This document shows positions 36,709 through 45,110 of a stretch of DNA of 64,000 nucleotides, piece after piece. The notes beneath the pieces were generated by a model, which did no database searches, was not told the origin of the DNA, and saw only the letters and a list, made by a program, of their open reading frames with translations. Where the stretch lies: positions 62,001 to 126,000 of the forward strand of contig DAHXKG010000004.1 in assembly GCA_027366525.1 (NCBI GenBank), given 5' to 3'. Source of the DNA: a candidate division FCPU426 bacterium. GTDB taxonomy: Bacteria > Oederibacteriota > Muellerivitia > Muellerivitales > DAHXKG01. Within the stretch, counting starts at the first letter, position 1. Every line of letters starts with the position of its first letter. The position numbers and the translations under genes are program-made.

Positions 36709-36734
36709 TATTTCTTTTGACGGGATATAATGAA

Positions 36735-37280
36735 ATGTTTAAAATGTACATTATGTATTTAAATCGTTTCAAGCTCATTTTACTAGTGGTTTTTTTAAGT
36801 GGAGTTGTTTTGTCTCCTCTAAAGGCTCAAGCACAAAATTTTACAGGGCTTACTGGAGGGTTAGTTTCTACGCAGCATACGCGATTTTATAAAGATCCAA
36901 CGAATGCATTTTTGTTAGCTTTTTTCCCGGGTATTTTAATACATGGCTTTGGGAGTTTTTATGCCCAAGATCCATTGATGGGCACAAGTTTGTTGACCGG
37001 TGAAGTTATTTCACTGATCGGAGTTACGTTTGGAGCGATCATCCATAGCAACCCATCCAATTATACAGGTACATTTCTGGGGCCATCATCAGGAACTGTT
37101 AAAAACAATGGAGCGAATATGATGCTCTATGGTGGGCTGTTGTTTGGAATTACCTGGGTCGTGGATATGGTTCATGCCCCGATTGCAGCGCGTAGTTATG
37201 ATGAAAGAAATAATTTGCAACCCATTGCTTGGATTTCTCCTCAAGGGACGCCAATGCTTGCAATGAATTGGAAATTTTAA
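36735..37280 (+). CDS. exported membrane-associated protein of unknown function
   Basis: A 181-residue protein from ATG 36735; ATGs at 36744 and 36753 also keep a good signal peptide, and SD support is weak for all. The hydrophobic segment LILLVVFLSGVVLS is followed by AQAQ, a likely signal peptidase site. The mature part has two or three further hydrophobic segments and the phrase FFPGILIHGFGSFYAQDP, which recalls small P13-like membrane proteins in spirochaetes and other diderms. That resemblance is weak. The C-terminus ends in Phe. The position between the ribosomal cluster and a porin suggests an envelope role. Confidence 0.6.
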   Translation: MFKMYIMYLNRFKLILLVVFLSGVVLSPLKAQAQNFTGLTGGLVSTQHTRFYKDPTNAFLLAFFPGILIHGFGSFYAQDPLMGTSLLTGEVISLIGVTFGAIIHSNPSNYTGTFLGPSSGTVKNNGANMMLYGGLLFGITWVVDMVHAPIAARSYDERNNLQPIAWISPQGTPMLAMNWKF

Positions 37281-37462
37281 TCACTTCAAGTTTTATTTCC
37301 CATTTGTATACGGTCATCAATAAAATAACAATTTAAAATCGACGCGATTACCAGCATGGCGATTTCAAAATATCGTGATGACAGGTTAATAATTAAGTTT
37401 TAAATTTTTTTTAAGTATGCAGAATTCCAAAAATGTATTTTTCTATTGAAATCAACGAGCAT

Positions 37463-37522
37463 TATTCATGCTATGGTATTTTTGTATGAGTGCTATCATA
37501 CAAAAATACCATAACATGAATA
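37463..37522. repeat. 27-bp inverted repeat with 6-base loop
   Basis: Arms 37463-37489 and 37496-37522 are complementary at 26 of 27 positions, with a GTGCTA loop. No T-run follows on either side, so it is not a typical intrinsic terminator. The surrounding gap (37281-37665, about 385 bases) holds no plausible gene. A second, smaller dyad (CGACATT/AATGTCG, 37549-37555 with 37564-37570) lies between it and the porin-like gene. It could be an RNA structure in a leader, a protein-binding dyad, or a relic of a small mobile element. No second copy was noticed in this window. Confidence 0.85.
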
Positions 37523-37665
37523 CACTGGTAATGGATGTTTAAGTTGGTCGACATTTATTTTTGAATGTCGCAATGTCGGTTTGTATTTTAGCAGTAAGAT
37601 TTGCGATTCATTGAAAGAGTAGCTATTGTAGATTCTTGAAAATGAAATCTCTTGGAGGAGATATT

Positions 37666-39063: not shown

Positions 39064-39104
39064 GAGTAACCTTCATGAAAATTAATTTTTCATGAAGGTT
39101 ACTC
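39064..39104 (+). terminator. 18-bp perfect hairpin after the porin-like gene
   Basis: Arms 39064-39081 and 39087-39104 pair perfectly with a five-base loop, beginning nine bases after the stop. Flanking TTTAAAT/ATTTAAA can extend the stem past a three-base bulge. There is no long T-run after the stem, so termination may be Rho-independent but weak, or the hairpin may protect the transcript's 3' end. Confidence 0.65.
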
Positions 39105-39180: not shown

Positions 39181-39816
39181 ATGAGCGAGAAGGAAATCGG
39201 TTTGAATCTCAAACGTGTAGCAATATTTTTGATTTTAGCTATATTATGGCCCGCAATGAGTTTTGCGGCCTCTCCGATTTCTGTTGTTTTTTTTGAAAAT
39301 CATAATTGTTATCAAATTGAAGGGTGCTTTTCGATTTCAGCAAACCGGTATGTGATTTGGAAAGTACTGACCAACTACAATCATATTTCTGACTTTGTTC
39401 AAAACATGAAATTTAGTCATGTGAAAATCCAAAAAGGTAATAATCTTCTTTTAGAACAAAATGCAGTAGAGGGTTTTTTGTTTTTTACTAAAACCATTCG
39501 AGTGCTTTTAGACGTTCATGAAGTCCCCGAAAAATTCATTTATTTTAGGGATGTTAACTATAAAGATTTTAAATTCTATCAAGGATATTGGGCGATAAAA
39601 TCCGCTGGAGCATCCAAACAAGTTTTTTATAGTTTGGCTGCACAAGCTAATTTTTCTGCGCCGGCATTTTTATCAGGAGGGATTGCGGAGGGCAGCGTGC
39701 TGCAACTTTTGAAATCAGTTCGAAAAGAAATTTTAGTTCAACAAACAATTTCGGAAAAGAAAACCATAGAGACGGTATCGATGATGCCAATACACACTCA
39801 GCTCAAAAAAAAATAA
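39181..39816 (+). CDS. secreted SRPBCC (polyketide cyclase/COQ10-like) protein
   Basis: A 211-residue protein with an N-terminal signal sequence (KRVAIFLILAILWPAMSFA) and one lipid-binding-type START/SRPBCC domain. Typical phrases are RYVIWKVLTNYNHISDFVQNM, TKTIRVLLDV and FYQGYWAIK. The fold binds hydrophobic ligands; the ligand here is unknown. ATG 39181 lacks an SD, whereas TTG 39202 has AAGGAA six bases upstream and still leaves an intact signal peptide, so the true start may be 39202. It follows the porin-like gene's hairpin. Confidence 0.7.
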   Translation: MSEKEIGLNLKRVAIFLILAILWPAMSFAASPISVVFFENHNCYQIEGCFSISANRYVIWKVLTNYNHISDFVQNMKFSHVKIQKGNNLLLEQNAVEGFLFFTKTIRVLLDVHEVPEKFIYFRDVNYKDFKFYQGYWAIKSAGASKQVFYSLAAQANFSAPAFLSGGIAEGSVLQLLKSVRKEILVQQTISEKKTIETVSMMPIHTQLKKK

Positions 39817-44947: not shown

Positions 44948-44974
44948 TAAAATATTGATAAGTCAAAAGAATGG

Positions 44975-45110
44975 AAAGTCGAAGACAGCAGGTGTTCTAA
45001 CAGAACTTAATAAGGCCTGCCGAGACGTTTTTGAATGATTCGTTGAGTTTACTCAAACCCTTTATTCGAGCGTTTCGAATAAGGGGTTTTTAGTTTTATC
45101 AAAGTACTTA
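44975..45110 (+). ncRNA. L10 leader (ribosomal protein leader of rplJL)
   Basis: The segment around 44977-45025 has the conserved L10-leader pattern: GAAGACAGCAGG, a GTTC/GAAC hairpin, then TTAATAAGGCCTGCCGAG. The GCAGG/CCTGC stem closes the structure. In other bacteria L10(L12)4 binds this element and controls expression. An intrinsic terminator follows before rplJ, preceded by a small TTGAGT/ACTCAA dyad, so the control here is probably by attenuation. Confidence 0.85.
45055..45093 (+). terminator. attenuator terminator in the L10 leader
   Basis: A 15-base stem (45055-45069 with 45075-45089, one G-T wobble), loop GCGTT, then a T-rich tail. It ends about 32 bases before the rplJ start. Confidence 0.85.

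Follow-up and report, generated by a model that had tools for sequence, protein, structure and literature searches.

The dyad and its locus

What role, if any, is played by a long, near-perfect inverted repeat that lies between a ribosomal-protein operon and a gene for a porin-like outer-membrane protein? We addressed this question within a window of 64 kb, the whole stretch of DNA that was analysed, which corresponds to positions 62001-126000 of one contig in a genome assembly of 2.02 Mb (2,022,204 bases in 33 contigs, 97.5% complete). The features of the locus are collected in Table 1.

Table 1. Features of the porin locus, in window coordinates.
Feature	Position	Strand	Basis
187-aa ORF that ends the ribosomal-protein operon; its stop opens the dyad spacer	36717..37280	+	ORF; 7/7 same-order stretches
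Three sigma-70-like promoter matches (37297-37326, 37364-37393, 37378-37406)	37297..37406	+	Matches to the E. coli consensus
Near-perfect dyad, 27-bp arms, 1 mismatch, 6-nt loop	37463..37522	.	Sequence, hairpin scan, shuffles, RNA fold
Further, small stem-loop of the porin leader, stem of 9 bp and loop of 4 nt	37549..37570	+	RNA fold
GGAGGAG, likely ribosome-binding site of the porin	37654..37660	+	Sequence
Porin-like outer-membrane protein, 462 aa	37666..39054	+	Weak Porin_O_P match; 8 homologous loci
Perfect 18-bp hairpin, 5-nt loop, without T-run, after the porin	39064..39104	.	Hairpin scan, RNA fold, relatives
SRPBCC / polyketide-cyclase-like gene, next after the porin	39181..39816	+	Domain match, relatives' gene order

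A first-pass annotation of the sequence had described a dyad at 37463-37522 with 27-bp arms, one mismatch and a six-base loop, and this geometry proved exact: the arms, at 37463-37489 and 37496-37522, are 27 nt each and 96% complementary. Its description of a 385-base gap before the porin-like gene was also borne out, with the spacer extending 385 nt from the stop of the 187-aa ORF (37280) to the porin ATG (37666). The dyad begins 183 nt past that stop and ends 143 nt before the ATG, and its stem is AT-rich, with G or C at 7 of the 27 arm positions. In the excerpt considered here, a study of 1565 bacterial genomes counted inverted repeats of 6-30 bp (PMC10434271), which makes arms of 27 bp long yet inside the described range. 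According to the excerpted text of PMC6060812, E. coli has an excess of inverted repeats in three kinds of place: ~20-45 bp before start codons, within promoter regions and near gene ends. The distance of 143 nt places the dyad outside the first of these zones.

Chance is not the explanation of the dyad. Using a scorer that adds 1 per pair and subtracts 2 per mismatch, we obtained a score of 24 for the dyad, compared with a best of 13 in 2000 dinucleotide shuffles of the 385-nt spacer and a best of 15 in 20 shuffles of the 64-kb window. A hairpin census that covered 919,060 of the 2,022,204 bases (45%, window included) ranked the dyad as the top hairpin; sixteen hairpins in these bases score at least 14, and the maximum in one order-1 Markov copy of them was 14. 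We also infer that the dyad is not a fold-back assembly artefact, because its flanks are unrelated and its arms differ by one base.

As RNA, the 74 nt around the dyad are predicted to fold at -33.6 kcal/mol on the + strand (z -8.0) and at -38.2 kcal/mol on the - strand (z -10.1), and 0 of 200 shuffles were as good in either orientation. The single mismatch reads C.A in + strand RNA and G.U in - strand RNA, and the predicted folds agree with this reading of the sequence. No Rfam family reached its gathering score in the spacer. A relaxed threshold returned 14 hits, all below gathering and all rejected; 13 were to microRNA families, which we discounted because long stems tend to resemble such families, and one was to lysM-TM7. 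Elsewhere in the window, positions 44961-45101 match the Rfam L10 leader, a known ribosomal-protein leader, above the gathering score.

Absence of a T-run and the question of termination

Like an intrinsic terminator, the dyad is a hairpin between two transcription units. Unlike one, it is followed by no T-run on either strand: the + strand continues with CACTGGTAAT and the - strand with ATGCTCGTTG, which confirms what the first-pass annotation had said of the T-run and led us to reject an intrinsic terminator. A T-less terminator or insulator, perhaps helped by Rho, would be a related alternative, which would stop transcripts of the ribosomal-protein operon, the 187-aa ORF included, from running into the porin gene. 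The location of the dyad in the spacer after the operon's end is consistent with this role, as is a Rho match over the cut-off in the genome. We surveyed 270 gene ends with a spacer of at least 60 nt, using five base shuffles of each (1350) for comparison. Hairpins of score 8 were absent from 229 of the 270 gene ends and from 1291 of the 1350 shuffles, and T-less hairpins were in excess after gene ends (30/270 versus 47/1350), which again agrees with T-less termination. However, terminators that do have a T-run also occur in this genome (11/270 gene ends versus 12/1350 shuffles), and a T-run terminator directly follows the 187-aa ORF in two of seven relatives. Furthermore, the dyad stands far into the spacer, 183 nt after the stop, with an AT-rich stem, which is unlike an intrinsic terminator as well. 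We consider termination or insulation at the dyad improbable.

A rearranged position of the porin gene

The window porin matches Porin_O_P at an E value of 0.0076, below the cut-off, and its homologue in one relative (G018) matches above the cut-off. Eight other genomes carry the porin, six of which belong to the window's order, and the aligned homologues share 43-53% identity. The genomes searched for the porin or with the spacer DNA included none other from the window's family. In contigs of named records, a single-protein search for the porin returned 0 loci and an alignment-based search returned 7, which are relatives already in the porin set, and no porin was found in viral contigs. The 187-aa ORF at 36717-37280 has a weak match of its own to the P13 porin family (19.7 bits, cut-off 100).

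The gene order map-rpsM-rpsK-rpsD-rpoA-rplQ-187-aa ORF is complete in six of seven same-order stretches; the remaining one, from G007, begins within rpsD and retains everything from there to the 187-aa ORF. The porin is absent from all seven of these operon stretches, each of which extends several kb beyond the 187-aa ORF. In all four relatives' stretches that were compared (G001-G004), an SRPBCC homologue comes next after the porin, and the two genes are found together at another place. The gene before the porin there is YceI-like in G002, and in G001 and G004 an ORF of comparable size occupies that position; a single search for this YceI-like neighbour in the window's genome found no match, a result that is uninformative alone. 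Because the relatives' operon stretches lack the porin and the pair is located elsewhere, the window's gene order represents a rearrangement with respect to these relatives, with the dyad in the apparent junction spacer where the porin pair moved behind the ribosomal-protein operon. None of the 8 relatives has a counterpart hairpin of score at least 9 in the interval from the preceding gene or contig end to the porin (in G018, this interval is 50 nt only).

Further copies and second sites

Among the options in the first-pass annotation was a miniature mobile element, with the proposal to look for further copies in the genome and its relatives and for target-site duplications. Apart from the shape of the dyad, we found nothing in favour of such an element or its remnant. 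A DNA search of the 97.5%-complete genome recovered only the dyad and its own reverse, with no second copy, and a MITE and a REP-like repeat were both rejected for want of copies. Among the matches listed for the spacer DNA, none in the 44 other genomes of the phylum was strong; in this search of 45 phylum genomes, the matches listed besides the locus itself and the dyad against itself were short and low-scoring, and the best of them had an E value of 4.2e-4 and lay in an AT-rich part outside the dyad. Searches of 50,697 phage and 72,556 plasmid records were likewise negative, and the flanks of the dyad contain no exact target-site duplication of 2-12 bp. Without a target-site duplication or a further copy, a mobile origin is very improbable.

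The annotation had also suggested a binding dyad, which we keep as a less likely alternative. Such a DNA-level site, whether an operator for a porin regulator or a cruciform, would act untranscribed. The AT-rich dyad upstream of a gene, with a predicted fold of -21.9 kcal/mol as single-stranded DNA, is consistent with this possibility. However, usual operators are far shorter than 27-bp arms. Moreover, beyond the dyad's own arms, an 18-base arm pattern with at most 3 mismatches occurs at 6 places in the genome, all with 3 mismatches, compared with 3 places for the reversed pattern, which argues against a second site. We give a DNA-level site little credence.

A T-less hairpin after the porin gene recurs in relatives

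The other spacer of the porin gene also contains a hairpin, which starts nine nt beyond the porin stop and has a predicted RNA fold of -26.9 kcal/mol. A hairpin is present in the post-porin spacer at seven of nine porin loci, namely the window (G000), G002, G003, G004, G005, G006 and G018. The arms of these seven are 11-20 bp long with 0-3 mismatches, a T-run follows none of them, and each has a score that was reached by at most 1 of 500 shuffles of 110 nt. At the other two loci, G001 and G012, a likely start codon, identified by reading, comes only ~31 and ~16 nt after the porin; the best hairpin of the 110 nt lies further on, with scores of 10 and 11 that were equalled by 3/500 and 1/500 shuffles, respectively. 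The post-porin hairpins of the relatives are at L004:2455-2496, L005:1416-1444, L007:2953-2990, L008:1635-1675, L009:2987-3029 and L011:2989-3027.

Judged from the separate stem of each locus, pairing is retained while the sequence of the stem differs between loci. Because the hairpin recurs in seven of nine loci with changed sequence, it is probably functional, and these comparisons suggest that it is probably a conserved RNA element.

The dyad as a candidate leader hairpin of the porin mRNA

Our best reading, which we hold tentatively, is that the dyad acts as RNA, as a hairpin of the porin leader that serves to shield the mRNA or to process it. The leader that contains the dyad would be transcribed either from a promoter located in the first half of the spacer or by polymerases that run on past the end of the ribosomal-protein operon. 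Once folded, its 27-bp stem would act as a block to ribonucleases or as a guide for them. One option is that the stem shields the 5' end against an RNase J-type nuclease working 5'-to-3'; another is that RNase III cuts the stem and thereby parts the porin mRNA from the upstream transcript. With the T-less post-porin hairpin at its other end, the porin message would be enclosed between two strong stems, which would tune its abundance against that of the adjacent genes. Within this reading, we infer both transcription through the dyad and every nuclease step.

The main support for this tentative reading is indirect: the dyad stands opposite a position-conserved stem at the gene's other end. Among 206 spacers of 100-700 nt in the 919 kb scanned, the porin's upstream spacer holds the best hairpin (score 24) and its downstream spacer ties for second (score 18) with a spacer of contig C1, a coincidence that we noted post hoc. 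Contig C1 has a perfect 18-bp hairpin with an 8-nt loop at C1:39554-39597 (L080:19554-19597). It is separated by 12 nt from the start of a short ORF, presumably for an ArsR-type regulator, and has no T-run toward that ORF.

The promoter-like matches in the spacer also bear on a leader. Using the E. coli consensus, we found three + strand matches upstream of the dyad and none between the dyad and position 37653; in 1000 shuffles of the upstream part, the mean was 0.53 matches and 2% reached three. The count falls short of significance when the whole spacer is considered (P 0.109). A fourth + strand match, at 37636-37665, overlaps the ribosome-binding region. A promoter model of the host itself was rejected, as an EM fit to 115 upstream regions drifted to A/T-rich blocks, with some random seeds near in likelihood. 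Downstream of the dyad, positions 37540-37575, which contain the small leader stem, fold as RNA at -10.6 kcal/mol (z -4.0). The motif AATGTCG occurs twice in the leader, at 37564-37570 and 37572-37578, and the first copy closes the small stem with CGACATT at 37549.

We next considered the ribonucleases encoded in the genome. RNase III processing stems are long, nearly uninterrupted double strands of ~20 bp or more. The dyad is of this kind in its predicted fold, with 27 bp and one mismatch, and RNase III is encoded in the genome (TIGR02191, 246.9 bits, cut-off 166.25). A protein matching TIGR00649 (named MG423), which we take to be the RNase J family, is over its cut-off as well. No match was found in the 97.5%-complete genome for RNase E/G (PF10150; the control search hit 6 of 14 genomes, 6 over the cut-off) or for RNase Y (12 of 14 genomes, 6 over the cut-off), although any single enzyme absence in an incomplete assembly is provisional.

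Several observations count against a leader hairpin: the dyad has no counterpart in the 8 relatives, its mismatch is an unpaired C.A in the + strand RNA and a G.U in the - strand RNA, and ORFs elsewhere in the genome contain long perfect hairpins as well. Of the three options in the first-pass annotation, an RNA leader structure nonetheless emerged as the best supported, through the promoter-like matches upstream and the T-less hairpin kept after the porin, and it remains putative.

A template-switch scar as the main rival

The main rival is that the dyad is a functionless scar. A template switch during replication would have used one arm as the model for the other, or would have turned an older quasi-palindrome into a perfect one, and a single later change would have produced the mismatch. 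The switch would have occurred in the spacer formed by the move of the porin pair behind the ribosomal-protein operon. Template switching makes or perfects stems, as described in the excerpted parts of PMC8794818 and PMC7202029. Like the quasipalindromes perfected in this way, the dyad is a near-perfect, isolated stem in a genome with other long perfect stems, two of them in ORFs; for the dyad, such an event is putative.

The hairpins inside ORFs are perfect stems of 21 bp (C2:49615-49663) and 17 bp (C11:8607-8645), both well within the coding sequence, and three order-3 Markov copies of the 919 kb contained no perfect arm longer than 16. This comparison indicates that something makes stems where regulation is unlikely. 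Two more perfect arms of 16 bp were counted as coding; by reading, they lie at an ORF end or in an apparent false N-terminal extension. The 21-bp and 17-bp hairpins (L085:9615-9663 and L086:8607-8645) are themselves possible traces of template switching.

In E. coli, SbcCD cuts DNA hairpins. A search for SbcD found no match in the 97.5%-complete genome, and the control search hit 13 of 14 genomes, 8 over the cut-off. The first-pass annotation had held that a palindrome this long is unstable unless selected, recent or mobile, a statement that is too strong for a genome with perfect 21-bp and 17-bp hairpins in ORFs and no SbcD match. The location of the dyad in a rearrangement junction, with none seen in the 8 relatives, also fits a scar. 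However, the gene beside the dyad carries a position-conserved hairpin in its other spacer. Long perfect hairpins are more frequent per base in spacers than in ORFs, which is expected from selection or from relaxed constraint alike. We regard a functionless scar as rather unlikely, and an origin by template switching may also be compatible with a present function.

Comparison with known mRNA stabilisers

If the dyad is a leader hairpin, it would resemble known cases of selective RNA processing and stabilisation. In the cip-cel operon, intergenic stem-loops serve as cleavage signals and make the processed transcripts more stable at both ends, according to the excerpt of PMC10311766. The porin locus is like such systems (PMC10311766, PMC10667835, both as excerpted) in that strong stems lie between cistrons or at their ends. 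A role of the dyad in cleavage or stability is predicted here from sequence alone, unlike that of the cip-cel stem-loops as excerpted. At -26.9 kcal/mol, the post-porin stem comes close in stability to the stable stem of an E. coli reporter (-25.4 kcal/mol) in the excerpt of PMC10667835; unlike that reporter, whose effect needed an RNase E site, the genome here has no RNase E/G match.

The E. coli ompA leader offers a further comparison. The stem of the dyad is much longer than the ompA stem. The two are alike in that a stem lies upstream of an outer-membrane protein gene, as the ompA 5' leader stabiliser is described in the excerpt of PMC2777011, although the leader location of the dyad is putative. 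They differ in that the ompA stabiliser protects against RNase E, and the genome here gave no RNase E/G match. A fuller proposal, which we consider speculative and distinctly unlikely as a whole, is that a bracket of two hairpins, one in the leader and one after the stop, fixes the lifetime of the porin mRNA. This bracket would be an ompA-like stabiliser that evolved independently against a different nuclease, with a leader stem possibly born by one template switch when the porin moved.

If this proposal were true, it would show a possible means of protecting a porin message in a bacterium without an RNase E/G match, and would provide a testable case of a leader hairpin that arose at the junction of a rearrangement. 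Irrespective of the nature of the dyad, the post-porin hairpin, which is present at seven of nine loci, represents a candidate RNA control element of a candidate phylum.
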